21,824 nucleotides of DNA from a virus, in IMG/VR virus record IMGVR_UViG_3300005919_000018, positions 1 through 21,824 of that record. The stretch is one strand, 5' to 3'. Positions 195-6,908 of the stretch are shown here, one piece after another. The position numbers were made by a program, and so were the translations under genes. How positions within the stretch are numbered: the stretch's first letter is position 1; every line of letters begins with the position of its first letter. Below the pieces are notes generated by a model that was given only the letters and a program-made list of their open reading frames with translations, made no database searches and was not told the origin of the DNA.

Positions 195-245
195 ATTAGA
201 CAATAGAGGCTTAAAAGGGCTACAGGCCACGAATAGCGCGGGATT
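195..245 (+). repeat. Conserved upstream block, copy 1
   Basis: This block contains ATTAGACAA (195-203), AGGCT, and a 23-base element at 223-245 that begins CAGGCCACGAATAGCGC and ends GGATT. The 23-base element recurs at 1523-1545 with one mismatch, and ATTAGACAA recurs 18 bases before it there. Both copies lie upstream of one of the two paralogous genes at 382 and 1756. It could be a protein-binding site or an iteron-like element. No conserved stem was found inside it, so a structured RNA is less likely. Confidence 0.7.
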
Positions 246-246
246 G

Positions 247-306
247 AAAAAAGCCCTATTTACAATCCCTACTATGTGTAATAGGGATCGAATTTGGGGC
301 TTTTTT
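247..306 (+). terminator. Two-stem terminator-like hairpin upstream of first paralog
   Basis: AAAAAAGCCC (247-256) pairs perfectly with GGGCTTTTTT (297-306). Inside it ATCCCTA (265-271) pairs with TAGGGAT (282-288) around a 10-base loop. The outer stem ends in a run of T on the + strand, and also on the - strand because of the A run, so it could stop transcription in either direction. It lies just before the promoter at 342-350, and probably insulates the gene at 382 from transcription entering from the left. Confidence 0.65.
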
Positions 307-341
307 GAGCTGCTGAATTAGCGGGTCTTTTCGGCAAAATG

Positions 342-350
342 TGATATAAT
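342..350 (+). promoter_or_regulatory. Extended -10 promoter for first paralog
   Basis: TGA-TATAAT is a consensus extended -10 box (TGN-TATAAT). No good -35 box is seen at 17 bases upstream, which suits an extended -10 promoter. The expected start of transcription, near 357, leaves a leader of only about 25 bases before the ATG at 382. TATAATAAG is shared with the promoter at 1718-1726. Confidence 0.7.
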
Positions 351-381
351 AAGGCTCATTTAAATATATTCGGGATAATTC

Positions 382-1467
382 ATGCCAGCTACTATAACTC
401 TACCTCAGTCTACCACTAAGAAAGGGACTAGCCTACCTATAGAGGCTATTCTCTCTGCTACTCCCGGTACTCTCTTTAAGAACTGGAAAGCCCTGTGTAT
501 TGGCTTTGGTTGGGACAGTGATATGAGTAGTGGGGCTAAGGTATCGGCTAGGAAACTACTAGACCTTAACTGGGAGTATAAGAAAGCCGGGCATTTCATA
601 CAGCTAGTTAGGCGAAAGACGGAAGTTAGCGCAGATCAAACTATAGTAAACGGAGCAATAGTACCTATGCGTAAGATAAGAGAAGGTACTAAGTATTTAA
701 TTAATACTTGTCACTTACTACTTCAGAGACTAGAAGAGGATATACCTGAGACTCTTGGGGAAACTGAAGTAACAGTTACATACCTAAGCGTACTAGAGGT
801 GGCGGAGCTAGTTGGCATTGTTAATAGTAACTATAAGGCCAGAGATAGGGAAGTTACTGGGACTGGTACTGCCTCAAAGAGTATTAAGTTCTTTAATATA
901 GAGAGCTATAATAAGTTAGATTCTATACTAAAGGGGAGCTTTAGACATCTTAAGAGTAGGAACGCTTTGAAGTTAGATGATACTTTCTTAGTAACCCTAC
1001 AGCGAGAGAATGGTAATAAGCCAGTACAGAGGGAGGCTACTAACTCAGAAGCTACTAGGATTATAGAGATAAAGAAGGCGGTTTTAGCAGAAAGGGGCAT
1101 AAGTACTGAGGCATTTATATACACTACTCCTCTAGTTAATGCCTATCTTACTAGAGTAAGCCAGCTAGTTAAGGAAGAATTAGGTATAACTTCATATAGA
1201 AAGGTGAAGAAGTTTAGCTATTCTAGGGCAATTAAGCTTAGTGTTCGCCTGTATAAGAGAGAACTTCACAAGGCTAGTCTTATTTTAGAGACTAATAGAC
1301 AGGTATTAGACGACTTGAGAAAGAAAGTAGACCTATACTTAGAGGATGGGGCAGACAATGCTAGTGTTTTAGTAGGTAATGGTGTTAGTTTAGACACTCA
1401 ATTTAAGGAAATACGCGACTATATAGAGGAACTTCTTAGTAATAATATTAAAGTAACTGCGGAGTAG
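382..1467 (+). CDS. Initiator-like/DNA-binding-type protein of unknown function, paralog A
   Basis: A 361-residue soluble protein with no signal peptide or membrane segment. Residues about 32-79 form a compact domain (NWKALC, then SARKLL, then KKAGHFIQLVRRK). A second conserved part has the pattern TYLSVLEVAELVGIVNSNYK, followed by a long charged alpha-helical C-terminal half. From memory, this order of segments resembles uncharacterised proteins carried by phages and plasmids of Gram-positive bacteria, some next to replication regions; no assigned function is claimed. It is clearly paralogous to the gene at 1756-2736, with matching segments along the full length. The start is preceded by only a weak GGGA ribosome site. 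The gene has its own terminator-insulated promoter, so it is probably expressed alone. A role in replication or gene control is inference. Confidence 0.85.
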   Translation: MPATITLPQSTTKKGTSLPIEAILSATPGTLFKNWKALCIGFGWDSDMSSGAKVSARKLLDLNWEYKKAGHFIQLVRRKTEVSADQTIVNGAIVPMRKIREGTKYLINTCHLLLQRLEEDIPETLGETEVTVTYLSVLEVAELVGIVNSNYKARDREVTGTGTASKSIKFFNIESYNKLDSILKGSFRHLKSRNALKLDDTFLVTLQRENGNKPVQREATNSEATRIIEIKKAVLAERGISTEAFIYTTPLVNAYLTRVSQLVKEELGITSYRKVKKFSYSRAIKLSVRLYKRELHKASLILETNRQVLDDLRKKVDLYLEDGADNASVLVGNGVSLDTQFKEIRDYIEELLSNNIKVTAE

Positions 1468-1504
1468 GGTACTGCGGTTTATATGACTAATGCAGAAGTA
1501 GCTA

Positions 1505-1545
1505 ATTAGACAAGTTAGGCTCCAGGCCACGAATAGCGCTGGATT
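1505..1545 (+). repeat. Conserved upstream block, copy 2
   Basis: ATTAGACAA (1505-1513), AGGCT, then the 23-base element at 1523-1545 that differs at one base from 223-245. It lies between the first paralog and the promoter of the second. The order block, hairpin, promoter, gene is the same as in copy 1, which indicates duplication of the whole unit rather than of the coding region alone. Confidence 0.7.
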
Positions 1546-1553
1546 CAGCTAAG

Positions 1554-1617
1554 TTGTACACATTAGCCCCCCCCTATAGAAACTCTAGATACACTAGGGG
1601 GGAGCTAATATGTACAA
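1554..1617 (-). other. Long hairpin, 23-bp stem with C8/G6 tracts
   Basis: Bases 1554-1576 pair with 1595-1617 around an 18-base loop. The stem begins TTGTACA and contains eight C facing six G. On the + strand there are two mismatches, both C against A (1561/1610 and 1568/1603). In minus-strand RNA both become G-U pairs, giving an unbroken 23-bp helix, so the folded RNA, if there is one, is probably made from the minus strand. No T run follows on either strand, so it is not a standard intrinsic terminator. It could also act as a DNA cruciform, for example at an origin. Confidence 0.6.
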
Positions 1618-1626
1618 AAGCCCTAG

Positions 1627-1665
1627 AGGCCACGGATGACGGGGCGTGCAGCGGGACACCGGCCG
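1627..1665. repeat. GC-rich island containing a third, diverged AGGCCACG copy
   Basis: AGGCCACG at 1627-1634 matches the first eight bases of the element AGGCCACGAATAG found at 225 and 1525, then diverges. By hand count 30 of 39 bases are G or C, against about 40-45 percent around it. GGCC stands at both ends. The preceding AAAAGCCCTA (1616-1625) is also found at 249-258, so this stretch may be the degenerate remainder of another block copy. Confidence 0.45.
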
Positions 1666-1717
1666 AAGATAAAGTTTAAGTTTAACGCAAATAAATCCGT
1701 GCAAATGCTGACCATTA

Positions 1718-1726
1718 TGGTATAAT
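1718..1726 (+). promoter_or_regulatory. Extended -10 promoter for second paralog
   Basis: TGG-TATAAT is a consensus extended -10 box; no convincing -35 is seen. It lies 35 bases before the ATG at 1756, against 37 bases for the matching element at 342-350. Both continue as TATAATAAG. The leader would be about 23 bases and shows no Shine-Dalgarno sequence. Confidence 0.7.
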
Positions 1727-1755
1727 AAGTTTTAGTCAACTAGCAGACACTATCC

Positions 1756-2736
1756 ATGAAAGAATTAAAAGAGACTCTAGCACTCCTATCTCTACCAGTA
1801 ACATATAAAGACTACCCTTCCTTATGCTCAGCTATAGGCTTTCCAGTTGCTTCCGGGAACACTAAAGCAGCCCAACTTAAGCTCTTAGAGGCTAACTATG
1901 TAGTTGAAAAGGCTGGAAGAAGTATAACTCTAGTCTCCCGTAAGGAAGAAGCTATAGTTCTCCCACAGCGTAAGACCCATGAGCCTCGTAATGACTCTAT
2001 CTATTGTAGTATAGTATCGGTAGGTCTATTAGACTACCTAGCCCCTAATGTTGACGGGGATAATGTAACTACGGTGTATCTATCTACTAGCGAGGCGGCA
2101 GAAGTAGCGGGATTAGTAAACTCAGAGTATAAGAACCTACCGTTGGGAGACCAAAAGGACACTTTAGCTACCTCTCAGTTCAAGTCAGAAGTAAGAAATA
2201 AGGTAAAAGACTGTCTTAGGGCTGTGTATAGCTCCCTAACTAGGCAGAATATACTACTAATACGGGATACTTACCTAGTACAAAGGTTCAGTAGTGTGTG
2301 GGATGAGGCAGATAAAGAGACATGTGTTAGGATAATGGATATAAAGAGGAGGTTATTGGATAAGTATGGGGCAGAAACTGAGGGTATTATGTTCTTAAAG
2401 AAGTCATCAGAGGCATATAAAAGGGACTTATACAAGGAATTAAAGAGTGAACTAGGCTTATCTAAGTGTAAAAGGGTTAAAAGTATGTCATTTACTAAGC
2501 AGATTAGGTCTAGTTTGGTTAAATATAAGGCAGAACTAGCTAAGGCTAAGACAAATAAGGAGATAATTAAGTACTTAGGTAAGAGGTTAGAGCGGTTTTT
2601 ACAGAGGACTCCTTTTAGTATGTTAGTTAGCGGAGGAGTTAGTGTGGATGCCCAGAAGAAACAGGCAGTGTTAGAGTTCGAGGAACTTGTTGATGTTTTT
2701 ATTAGATTGGAGGGGGGGGGAGGTGAAAGAGTTTAG
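1756..2736 (+). CDS. Initiator-like/DNA-binding-type protein of unknown function, paralog B
   Basis: A 326-residue soluble protein paralogous to the one at 382-1467. Matching segments include DYPSLCSAIGF with AGRSITLVSRK (residues about 18-63), TTVYLSTSEAAEVAGLVNSEYK in the middle, RIMDIKRRLLDKYG and LGLSKCKRVKSMSF further on, and LVSGGVSVDAQ near the end. The proteins are well diverged, so the duplication is old or the copies were gathered separately. It is about 35 residues shorter than paralog A. Its last codons read through a run of nine G (2712-2720) that encodes glycines, and the gene overlaps the next small gene by 14 bases. No ribosome binding site is visible before the ATG. Function unknown; replication or regulation is a guess from family resemblance and context. 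Confidence 0.85.
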   Translation: MKELKETLALLSLPVTYKDYPSLCSAIGFPVASGNTKAAQLKLLEANYVVEKAGRSITLVSRKEEAIVLPQRKTHEPRNDSIYCSIVSVGLLDYLAPNVDGDNVTTVYLSTSEAAEVAGLVNSEYKNLPLGDQKDTLATSQFKSEVRNKVKDCLRAVYSSLTRQNILLIRDTYLVQRFSSVWDEADKETCVRIMDIKRRLLDKYGAETEGIMFLKKSSEAYKRDLYKELKSELGLSKCKRVKSMSFTKQIRSSLVKYKAELAKAKTNKEIIKYLGKRLERFLQRTPFSMLVSGGVSVDAQKKQAVLEFEELVDVFIRLEGGGGERV

Positions 2737-2884
2737 TGTTGAGGCGTTAGTTATAGTAGGGCTAATGAGGAAGTTAGGGGTGGAAAAGGTAGACGTGAGC
2801 GAGTTAGACTTTAGTGAGCCTAAGGGGTTGGTTATTGGGAGTGACGAGGTAGTATTGGAGGAGAGGGATGGGGGTAAATTGTAA
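2723..2884 (+). CDS. Small hypothetical protein, 53 residues
   Basis: The frame is open from 2687, but I choose the GTG at 2723. It begins VKEFSVEALV right after a G-rich stretch (run of nine G at 2712-2720, then AGG) that can pair with 16S rRNA. The product is acidic and amphipathic, with LMRKLGVEKVDVSELDF followed by EPKGLVIG and DEVVLEER, a pattern like small phage proteins of unknown role. It overlaps the end of paralog B by 14 bases, which suggests translational coupling, and it lies in the +1 frame relative to that gene. Loss of one G from the run would fuse the two frames. It is the last rightward gene before the convergent structural operon. Confidence 0.6.
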   Translation: MKEFSVEALVIVGLMRKLGVEKVDVSELDFSEPKGLVIGSDEVVLEERDGGKL

Positions 2885-3072: not shown

Positions 3073-3420
3073 CTAGCCTCCGAAGTTTTGGAGTAATTCA
3101 AGTGAGATAGTATACTTACCTTTTCTTCTAACTACTTTAGTACTGTCTTTAACCATTCTTACGTTATAGACAGTGCCACCACACCCATCAGTATATTGAA
3201 ATACTACTGTATCCCGAACTAAGAAGAGAAATACTAGTACTGTATCCTTATCAGTCGGACTTAGTGGTATATATTCTACGCTCCACCCTCGTCTTACAGC
3301 ATTAACTACCTCATTTGCCCCCTCATATACCGGACTTTCTTCTTTAGTACTCTTTCCAGAGACCGCAATAGTAGTCTCTACTGCCCTAAGAAGCTTTGAT
3401 TGTAGTGGTAAGTCCGCCAT
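3073..3420 (-). CDS. gpM-like minor tail (tail-tip) protein
   Basis: A 115-residue protein whose C-terminal two thirds follow the pattern of lambda-type minor tail protein M: GWSVEYIPLS, then DTVLVFLF, then FQYTDG and a final KYTISLELLQNF strand. In lambda, gpM lies right after the tape measure gene and belongs to the tail tip. The position here is the same: it starts 3 bases after the tape measure stop. It is the last gene of the leftward operon in this window. The expected followers gpL, gpK, gpI and gpJ are absent, and the region beyond is convergent. Family assignment rests on pattern and position and is moderately sure. Confidence 0.65.
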   Translation of the reverse strand: MADLPLQSKLLRAVETTIAVSGKSTKEESPVYEGANEVVNAVRRGWSVEYIPLSPTDKDTVLVFLFLVRDTVVFQYTDGCGGTVYNVRMVKDSTKVVRRKGKYTISLELLQNFGG

Positions 3421-3422
3421 TG

Positions 3423-6400
3423 TTAGAATACTCCAGTTATTTGAGTCGGATTAAGCTGATTACCAGGTCTACTAGCCTTAGCAATACCCTGTTGAACTAA
3501 CGCTCGTAGCTGATTCCCTATAGCTTTAGATATAATTTCCCCTTGGTCTTGTGCGCTACTGCCTTCTTTCTCTACTACTGATACGCTAATAGTACCTATA
3601 GAGATACCTCCCCCGCCTACATTACTAGCTGAAACTCCCATATTACCCTTACTATCCCGCTTAATGGGCATGATGACTTCGGGCTTACCGCCTTCTCTAA
3701 GAGAACCCATGGGGAAAGTGGCAGGAGAACTACCTATATCTGGTATACCTCCTTTAGCAAATGGCGTAACTCCTATAAGACTACCTATATCAAGAGAAGA
3801 TAGGCTTGCTGAGCCACTTATCTGTGTAGTAGCCGCTGTCCCAAGCCCTGCTATAGAAGTTGACCCAACTGCACTAAATAGACTGCCTAGTATCTGACTA
3901 GCTAGTTGTTGTGCGGCTATCTGAGCTAAGCTATCTATAACAGTAAGGGCAAAGTCTTTCATAGCCTCACCAGCACTCTTAGCTCCAGTTATAAAGTCTT
4001 TAAAACTACTACTTAGTGCATCATTTAGAGTAGTCCGTGTGAACACTACAACTTCGTTAGAGGTCTGTTGGAAAGCATATAGACTAGCTGTCATTTCGTC
4101 AATAGACCTGCGTATATTGCCATTTACATCAGTAGTTCTATTGTACTCTGTCTCTGCGTTGGCGATAATCTTAGTCTGTGTGGCGATATAAGCCTCAGCA
4201 GCTACAGTCTTATCTAACATACCCTGTAGATTTGTCTTAGTCCCTGCGTCTACGTCCGCATTAGTCCTAGTAGTTGCGTTATTTAGTGCCTGTTCTGCTA
4301 TAGTAGTGTTACGTATACTATCAGTTAGTTCTGCTTGTGCTACGTTATTAGCCTTAGTATACTCTAGTTGACCTATAGCAAACAGAGTTAGTTCTTTATT
4401 CTTGCCAGCAAAAGCCTCAGCATATAGTTTGTCTAGCCTTGAGTCTAGTAGTTTGTTCTGGGCTTCAGCAGCTAACTTAGCACTACCAGTAAGGGTATAG
4501 TAGGCTTGGCTTGAGGCTATAAGACTCTCGTTGAATTGTCTTTGTGCAGTATCTCGCTGCCCCGCTGTCTTAAGTTCTTTAGCACTCTTCTCAGCTTCCA
4601 GGTTACTTATCTTAACTTTAAGACTATTAGATTGGTTAGCTAATGTCTCTCGGGCAGGAGAACCCTCTGGGGCTTTCTTTATAAGGTCTCTTTGTTTAGC
4701 TAACTGCCCGCGTAACTGGTCTAATCTCTCATCAAAGGCACGGCTCTGTAGTATATTTAGCTCAGAATAATAGGTCTGTATAGATAGTTTATTGTTATCA
4801 TATAGTGCCTTTACTTGAGCGAGCATAGACTGAGTAGCACTAACAGTGGCGTCTGTCTGACGTACTCCGGCATCTTTAGTCGCAGCAAGTTTATCTGCTT
4901 GTAGTTTCTTCTCTTTAGTAGCTAGATCTCTCCCTATACCAGCAGTATGCCTAGCTATAGCATCCTTAGAGGCGAATATAGCAGCTTCAGCTTTGTCTAT
5001 GTCCGCTTGTAGTATGTTAGCTTGTGCCTGAGAAGCTTTACTAGCAGCACCAACAGCTACTTCACCAAACTTAGCTCTTGCAGCTTTAGCTTCATTAAGC
5101 TTAACCTCATACTCCTTTAGTAACCCTAGCTGTTCTTGTATGAATGGGTCATTCTGAATAGATAGTTGTAGCTCTTTAGTTTGTTCTGAATTACCAGTAG
5201 TAGCTACTCTTATTCTCTCAATATAATCATTTATAGCCTTCTCGCCCCTAGCGAACACATCATTAGTTTCTTCCCCGGCTTTCTTTAGGCCATAGATAGC
5301 CCCAGCAACTAAGCCTATAGCTGTAACTAACCCAGCAGGGCTAAGTAAGAAAGCCATGGACACTTTTAGTAGTGTCATAGCCCTAGAAGTAGCCCCTAAA
5401 GCAGCAGTAGCACCAGCCGCAGCAGGAACAACCCCTAACATAAACTCTAAGAAAAGGGCTAACTTGTGGCCAGCTACTACGAAAGCTAACCCCAGTCCTG
5501 CGTTTAATGCTACTGTAAGCTCTTTAGATCCCTTTAACATGCCTCGTATAGAATCTATTACCCCTGTAGCAAGATTAACAGTCTTAATCATAGGCTCTTC
5601 AAGCATAACACCTATAGTCTCGGCTAGATGAGTAAAGGAAGTAGTTAGCCTTCCGAGGTTAGACTGTAAGCCTTCTCCTGCGATAACCATTGACTTAGAG
5701 AAGGTACTACCGTAGAATTCGGCAAATTTAACAAGTTCACCATGGGCTTGAACTAAGCCAGCTTTCATGTCTGCCGCTAGTGTAGCCGTACTTCTACCAG
5801 TAGCTTTAGCAAAGGCAGCAAATGCACCAGGAAGTCTATTACCTAACTGCTTTGTTAACTCTTCTGATTGGACTTTACCCTTATTAAATGTCTGTTGAAG
5901 TGCTTGAAATATACCTACGGCACTATCTGAGGAAAGATGAAGTGCGGTAATAGCGGTATTCATGTTAGTAAATACCTTCCACACGTCTTGGGTAGTCTCC
6001 CCTGCAATACTCATAGAAGCATTTAGGTTACGAAAGTTCTCCCTAAGGGTAGTAATTGATATACCTGTACGTTGGGCTTCTTCGTCTAGGGCTGTCATAA
6101 CACTTGCCCCAGCGAATTGACTATCAAACGTAGCTGCGAAGACAGATTTAGTAGTCTGTAACTCTATTAGAGCCTTGGGGACACTACGCAAAGTATTAAG
6201 CATAGTATTGATAGCAGCGTTTATTAGACGATAGCCCGCTACTACCCCAAAGATATGACTTAGTATGTTATCATGTATGTTAGATATAGAGTTAAGGAAG
6301 TTCTTTTGCTTAGATAGTTCAGCATTTTCTGCTCTAATACCAGCAGCATTAGCAGCCATATACTCATTACCACGACGAGTAAACTGTATATCCCTTGATG

Positions 6401-6908
6401 CCTTTAATGCTTTAGCGGTCGCTAGTTCTTCTCTCTTTATTTGAGCTAGTGCTAGGTTATTATTCTGGTTTTTAACCCTAGCTATCTCACTAAGTGCAGC
6501 TCTCTCAGCAGCAGCAGCTCTATTAATGGCTGCTATTTGAAGCTTTAGCTGGTCTTGGCGTATTCTATCTTGTGATGCAGCAGCAGTCCTAGTAGCAGCT
6601 TCCTTAGCTTGGGTAGCTTTCCTCTCCATAGCAGCTATCTGATCTAATGCTCTTTGGGCATTACTAGCATTAGAAGAAGTCCCAGCAGTACTCGTAACTA
6701 GCTTTTGCGCCCCTATTAGCTTACCTAGTACTCTAGTAGCCTCTTTAACATTCTGTTGGTATTTGCCAAATATAGAAGTTGCCGAAGTTAAAGCCTTATT
6801 AGTTGTAGTTACCGCAGCTGTAACTAGGCCTAGCTGCTTTATTAGCTCTTTTAGGGAGTTATCCTCAGACCCCATATCTACGCTAACAGCTACTTTAACA
6901 TCAGTCAT
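3423..6908 (-). CDS. Tail tape measure protein
   Basis: A 1161-residue protein, by far the longest in the window, placed after the frameshifted tail chaperone as in most siphophages. The N-terminal 200 residues are rich in Ala, Lys and Gln and look coiled-coil. Residues about 255-390 match the known tape-measure N-terminal domain (for example QLGNRLPGAFAAFAKATG). Two hydrophobic stretches at about 470-550 could insert in the host membrane. A second long coiled-coil part follows. Residues about 955-1012 (DALSSSFKDFITGAKSAGEA and on) match the lambda tape-measure C-terminal family, followed by a Gly/Ser-rich end. It sets tail length; at about 0.15 nm per residue a tail near 170 nm is expected. 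It overlaps the preceding frame by 8 bases. Confidence 0.95.
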   Translation of the reverse strand: MTDVKVAVSVDMGSEDNSLKELIKQLGLVTAAVTTTNKALTSATSIFGKYQQNVKEATRVLGKLIGAQKLVTSTAGTSSNASNAQRALDQIAAMERKATQAKEAATRTAAASQDRIRQDQLKLQIAAINRAAAAERAALSEIARVKNQNNNLALAQIKREELATAKALKASRDIQFTRRGNEYMAANAAGIRAENAELSKQKNFLNSISNIHDNILSHIFGVVAGYRLINAAINTMLNTLRSVPKALIELQTTKSVFAATFDSQFAGASVMTALDEEAQRTGISITTLRENFRNLNASMSIAGETTQDVWKVFTNMNTAITALHLSSDSAVGIFQALQQTFNKGKVQSEELTKQLGNRLPGAFAAFAKATGRSTATLAADMKAGLVQAHGELVKFAEFYGSTFSKSMVIAGEGLQSNLGRLTTSFTHLAETIGVMLEEPMIKTVNLATGVIDSIRGMLKGSKELTVALNAGLGLAFVVAGHKLALFLEFMLGVVPAAAGATAALGATSRAMTLLKVSMAFLLSPAGLVTAIGLVAGAIYGLKKAGEETNDVFARGEKAINDYIERIRVATTGNSEQTKELQLSIQNDPFIQEQLGLLKEYEVKLNEAKAARAKFGEVAVGAASKASQAQANILQADIDKAEAAIFASKDAIARHTAGIGRDLATKEKKLQADKLAATKDAGVRQTDATVSATQSMLAQVKALYDNNKLSIQTYYSELNILQSRAFDERLDQLRGQLAKQRDLIKKAPEGSPARETLANQSNSLKVKISNLEAEKSAKELKTAGQRDTAQRQFNESLIASSQAYYTLTGSAKLAAEAQNKLLDSRLDKLYAEAFAGKNKELTLFAIGQLEYTKANNVAQAELTDSIRNTTIAEQALNNATTRTNADVDAGTKTNLQGMLDKTVAAEAYIATQTKIIANAETEYNRTTDVNGNIRRSIDEMTASLYAFQQTSNEVVVFTRTTLNDALSSSFKDFITGAKSAGEAMKDFALTVIDSLAQIAAQQLASQILGSLFSAVGSTSIAGLGTAATTQISGSASLSSLDIGSLIGVTPFAKGGIPDIGSSPATFPMGSLREGGKPEVIMPIKRDSKGNMGVSASNVGGGGISIGTISVSVVEKEGSSAQDQGEIISKAIGNQLRALVQQGIAKASRPGNQLNPTQITGVF

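Follow-up and report, generated by a model that had tools for sequence, protein, structure and literature searches.

The window analysed here, a 21,824-base IMG/VR virus record of IMG/VR class linear and perhaps a fragment, carries at its left end two tandem plus-strand genes, A (382-1467, 361 aa) and B (1756-2736, 326 aa), which are convergent with a structural operon. The minus-strand genes, running from 18735 down to 3073, encode the terminase large subunit, portal, protease and major head protein, among others. At the right end of the window, endolysin is the first lysis gene on the plus strand and the last ORF appeared Rz-like by eye. We take the source to be a tailed phage, and its host was probably Gram-negative. 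The same phage is represented by a second, near-identical record, which spans only about 4.8-20.2 kb of the window; a single contig therefore supports the placement of A and B beside the tail genes. The tape-measure gene of the window is followed by a 115-aa gene and then by the A/B unit; in a related phage (L077:6997-14182, compared with window 3073-6908) it is followed by further large, probably tail, genes. This difference in the tail region indicates an insertion or rearrangement at this place. Neither A nor B was found in the available parts of related phages, which were picked by terminase, and scans of viral contigs and genome contigs revealed no close relatives of either gene. Positions 1-194 contain no ORF of at least 60 aa on either strand, no tRNA and no Rfam match, and the first 110 bases look G+C-rich. 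GATC sites are far rarer in the window than expected (26 versus 91, both strands), and CCGG is depleted about twofold, a pattern that resembles phages avoiding restriction.

A and B are full-length paralogs with 32% amino-acid identity (321 aligned codons) and 47% nucleotide identity, in agreement with the first-pass annotation, which had assigned both genes to one protein family. Since only 11 of the 34 fourfold-degenerate sites common to A and B are identical, their synonymous divergence is saturated. The longest word shared by the two units measures 11 nt in the coding and 17 nt in the upstream regions. A 65-aa ORF (2687-2884, plus strand) runs over a G9 tract and overlaps the 3' end of B in the +1 frame; it showed no family match and is a doubtful member of the B unit. 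The nine-G run near the end of B (window 2711-2723) overlaps this ORF, and slippage or simple translational coupling is possible.

Conserved parts upstream of genes A and B

Both genes are preceded by a set of shared sequence blocks. ATTAGACAA is present at 195-203 in unit 1 and, as an exact copy, at 1505-1513 in unit 2, these being the only two plus-strand copies in the window. It is followed, at a spacing of 14 nt (unit 1) or 4 nt (unit 2), by a 28-bp plus-strand element whose copies, GGCTACAGGCCACGAATAGCGCGGGATT (218-245) and GGCTCCAGGCCACGAATAGCGCTGGATT (1518-1545), agree at 26 of 28 positions, so that the near-identical repeat reported earlier for both units was borne out. A degenerate third copy on the same strand, AAAAGCCCTAGAGGCCACGGATGACG (1616-1641), had been overlooked. 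It follows hairpin 2 and matches 214-239 at 20 of 26 positions; its ungapped score was reached by 1 of 300 dinucleotide shuffles, and in a scan with a shorter 22-mer core it was indistinguishable from chance. A further repeat, AAAAGCCCTA, occurs within the 5' arm of hairpin 1 (249-258) and downstream of hairpin 2 (1616-1625). The order of parts, earlier given as the same in both units, thus differs between them.

The sole two good copies of the element in the window precede its sole two family genes, and no structural gene in the window is preceded by one. In the available parts of the terminase-picked related phages the element was not found with up to 5 mismatches allowed. The 15-mer core AGGCCACGAATAGCG matched 44 IMG/VR contigs, which we took as chance; in none of these does the match extend to the full element, and none encodes A or B. 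Folding of the element was not better than that of shuffles (z 0.13 and -1.26), and both substitutions between the copies fall on paired positions of a small hairpin in copy 2, the pairing being broken in copy 1. The element is therefore likelier to be a DNA site than an RNA structure. Diverged sequence of differing length separates the conserved blocks (ATTAGACAA, the 28-mer and TGNTATAATAAG), which argues for separate constraint and not for one recent copying event. As the element was conserved (26/28) while the fourfold sites became saturated (11/34), the constraint on the cis parts is real, and the earlier observation that the parts were kept while the genes diverged widely stands.

Each gene has its own extended -10 promoter on the plus strand, namely TGATATAATAAG (342-353) for A and TGGTATAATAAG (1718-1729) for B. 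Both begin with TGNTATAATAAG, at 342 and 1718, and TGNTATAAT has no further site on either strand of the 21.8 kb window, in which 0.03 TGNTATAATAAG would be expected. The hexamer TATAAT (345-350 and 1721-1726) lies about 30 bases before the ATG in both units and is directly preceded by TGN, as is characteristic of sigma-70 extended -10 promoters, while no -35 box was recognisable. The absence of TGNTATAAT elsewhere in the window makes these credible extended -10 promoters, consistent with the TGN-type promoter previously noted before each gene. The 28-bp element and the promoters do not overlap, the -10 hexamers being situated about 100 and 175 bp downstream of it.

The two hairpins are of different kinds. 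Hairpin 1 (247-306) has the A6...T6 architecture of a bidirectional intrinsic terminator, with a G+C-rich stem followed by a T-run on both strands, and folds with -23.6 kcal/mol (z -4.9) on the plus and -28.0 kcal/mol (z -7.9) on the minus strand. Only as minus-strand RNA does hairpin 2 (1554-1617) fold into an uninterrupted 23-bp stem (-40.4 kcal/mol; plus strand, -31.3 kcal/mol); it has no T-run and so does not qualify as an intrinsic terminator. They have no common sequence and are not homologous. Hence, a large hairpin is indeed found in each unit, as the first-pass annotation had stated, but the two are unrelated and only hairpin 1 is terminator-like. In both structures, C.A mismatches on the plus strand correspond to G.U pairs on the minus strand; the minus-strand stability of both hairpins hints, on the small basis of about four informative positions, at selection as minus-strand RNA. 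A search of Rfam returned no family at gathering score and chance-level matches only at a lax threshold.

Protein family and genomic neighbours

PHROG 36702 (function unknown) was the only PHROG to match A (E 4e-4) or B (E 2e-12). A profile HMM made from 24 other members, with A and B left out, recovered both (domain E 5e-19 for A and 4e-22 for B), confirming their membership. Pfam and NCBIfam gave nothing above threshold for A or B, and no PDB match was significant. The members originate mainly from large Bacillota phages and prophages. Like A and B, the proteins of PHROG 36702, among them gp200 of Geobacillus virus E3, are homologous over most of their length and have an N-terminal FKNYKELC-type domain, but they are only about 20% identical to A and B and are usually encoded in single copy. 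Upstream of 15 distant homologs there was no comparable repeat or hairpin, the matches being either of low complexity or weak, and a plain ribosome-binding site precedes most of these genes. We therefore attribute the cassette to this phage, or to close relatives outside the collections, and not to the family. Homologs lacking the repeat and hairpin had been named beforehand as evidence against the first interpretation, and all distant homologs checked are of this type. Plasmid homologs of B were not found, and a homolog gave a single Bacillus 'plasmid' record; Clostridium pCW3 Rep, considered as a potential family member, was dropped when the plasmid search gave no such match.

The predicted structure of a central family member (pLDDT 90, pTM 0.71) is composed of helix-helix-beta-hairpin modules, which may be regarded as winged-helix-like. 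This model had no significant PDB match, and RepE was not among the 50 PDB matches listed. The weaker model of B (pLDDT 73) yielded sub-threshold Foldseek matches only, to MukE and RepE (RepE54, E 1-5). In one phage, a normal family gene is immediately followed by a fusion gene (L060:5374-6309) that joins the N-terminal domain of the family to a GIY-YIG nuclease, suggesting that this domain is a DNA-binding module. Judging from the secondary structure, this fusion and the gene linkage described below, we consider the family to be an undescribed, probably multi-winged-helix DNA-binding family. The earlier statement that no such system had been described is accurate for the protein family, within the libraries used; the promoter and terminator are ordinary.

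The family genes recurrently neighbour a gene for a large YonO/RdRP-type protein. At seven loci (L052, L056, L088, L090, L122, L131, L132) the family gene lies at most two genes upstream of such a gene and is co-directional with it; L133 also has a family gene within two genes of a YonO/RdRP-like polymerase gene on the same strand. The hand-found loci with a polymerase within two genes on the same strand amount to eight. In Thomasclavelia phage TR-TP2, the neighbour of the family gene is annotated as an RNA-dependent RNA polymerase. The assignment of the neighbours as YonO-type is a prediction from profile matches: PHROG 8308, which also has matches in the Bacillus subtilis control genome, matched the four such proteins scanned, and Pfam RdRP matched one of them. 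The seven polymerases compared share 16-39% mutual identity, and a DxDGD motif was seen in three of them. In a chromosome survey of 27 further loci, taken without regard to their neighbours, a polymerase was encoded within two genes in 9 cases (directly downstream in six, upstream in three), while the majority of loci had no polymerase nearby. All 11 polymerase genes within the fetched regions of this survey were on the strand of the family gene. Besides the loci named above, those with a polymerase gene within two genes on the same strand are L166, L172, L174, L176, L177, L182, L183, L185 and L189. This repeated linkage favours a role in transcription over one in replication, and from gene context the family is a candidate partner or regulator of YonO-type polymerases. 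A YonO-like polymerase was found neither in the window, which is perhaps a fragment, nor in related phage fragments, and A and B, which are not polymerases themselves, are about 20% identical to the polymerase-linked homologs.

Proposed regulation of the pair and competing explanations

The locus is a real, constrained feature, for which a putative autoregulatory role of A and B appears probable. We tentatively favour, with somewhat less than even confidence, the more specific proposal that A and B are paralogous transcription regulators which auto- and cross-regulate through the shared 28-bp element and are driven by host sigma-70. According to this proposal, A and B stem from a tandem gene duplication, with a separate host-sigma-70 extended -10 promoter for each copy and the asymmetric 28-bp DNA element kept upstream of both; unit 2 has a second, weaker copy of it. 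The A and B proteins would bind this putative site and thereby control their own and each other's transcription, and hairpin 1 would halt read-through from both sides and so insulate gene A. Given that terminator and promoter both lie downstream of the element, repression through mere occlusion does not suggest itself; the proteins might equally well activate, act by looping or control the upstream transcript. Against autoregulation count the distances of about 100 and 175 bp between the elements and the -10 hexamers, the lack of the repeat in distant homologs, the absence of a significant PDB match for the fold, and the fact that a single phage, with n = 2 units, shows the cassette.

The neighbourhood of the homologs raises the question whether A and B instead serve a phage polymerase. 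They could be accessory or promoter-specificity factors for a YonO-type enzyme, with the element as its promoter or activator site and TATAAT providing early, host-driven expression. The linkage at eight hand-found and 9 of 27 surveyed loci, seen with polymerases that are only 16-39% mutually identical where compared, is in line with this idea, and a long, asymmetric conserved site resembles the promoters of phage RNA polymerases. Whether YonO of SPbeta recognises promoters alone or with further factors was left as not known in the study of this enzyme and its RdRP-like relatives (PMC5467207). However, the window and the related phage fragments are devoid of such a polymerase, the linked homologs are remote in sequence from A and B, most surveyed loci are unlinked, and the element does not precede any structural gene in the window. 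We thus rate this role of A and B as rather unlikely, and assign the same low likelihood to the broader notion that the family supplies YonO-type polymerases with a DNA-recognition partner hitherto missing, or with a dedicated regulator, and that the 28-bp element is the first visible target of such a factor. Replication initiation, with the repeat and hairpin regions as origins, had been the other candidate of the first-pass annotation beside a pair of autoregulated regulators. A hairpin adjoins the conserved site upstream of each gene, and A and B resemble RepE/Rep_3 iteron initiators in their winged-helix-like secondary structure and in the position of the gene near a conserved site, RepE54 being among the weak Foldseek matches of the B model. 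But no Rep-family profile matched in Pfam, NCBIfam or PDB, the better family model did not list RepE, and in place of tandem iterons there is one full copy per unit and one degenerate copy in unit 2. Moreover, the recurring neighbour of the homologs is an RNA polymerase and not a set of replication genes, and the GC skew, proposed earlier as a check for an origin, peaks near 3 kb, just where the coding strand changes, and is therefore uninformative. The origin reading was rejected as highly improbable, and autoregulated regulators are the better fit of the two.

Two further explanations concern the conserved stretch itself. Phage 'moron' units have their own promoter and terminator and lie on the strand opposite to the structural operon. 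The A/B unit shares these properties, and in related phages the tape-measure gene is here followed by additional, probably tail, genes. A duplicated 'moron'-type unit beside the tail operon may thus be considered, its conserved stretch being maintained through recombination or gene conversion, or being a recently moved repeat, and not owing its conservation to use; that the element is not known elsewhere in IMG/VR would fit as well. A single conversion tract, however, would not leave diverged sequence between ATTAGACAA, the 28-mer and TGNTATAATAAG, promoter and element have both been kept, and two tandem paralogs with a long conserved upstream element in common differ from the usual moron. We regard this origin as unlikely. 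Alternatively, the conserved parts may act in RNA, either as an attenuating leader with mutually exclusive folds, for which AGCCC within terminator 1 is a potential pairing partner of GGGCT at 217-221 (fold of 210-262), or as minus-strand antisense RNAs with functional hairpins, in keeping with the greater stability of both hairpins on that strand, where the C.A mismatches become G.U pairs. This is quite improbable given the lack of an Rfam match, the shuffle-like folding of the element and the two substitutions that break its pairing; besides, the recognisable promoters are downstream of element and hairpin, so that transcripts started at TATAAT would not contain the element.

With paralogous regulators acting through the shared element as the favoured reading, a specific candidate for the DNA target of an unnamed phage protein family is at hand, along with a role open to test. 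If A and B only autoregulate, they would be an ordinary phage regulatory pair, albeit one that offers a useful natural binding-site comparison. YonO-like single-chain polymerases are distant relatives of the cellular multi-subunit polymerases, and the polymerase neighbourhood of the family bears on how these enzymes find their promoters.
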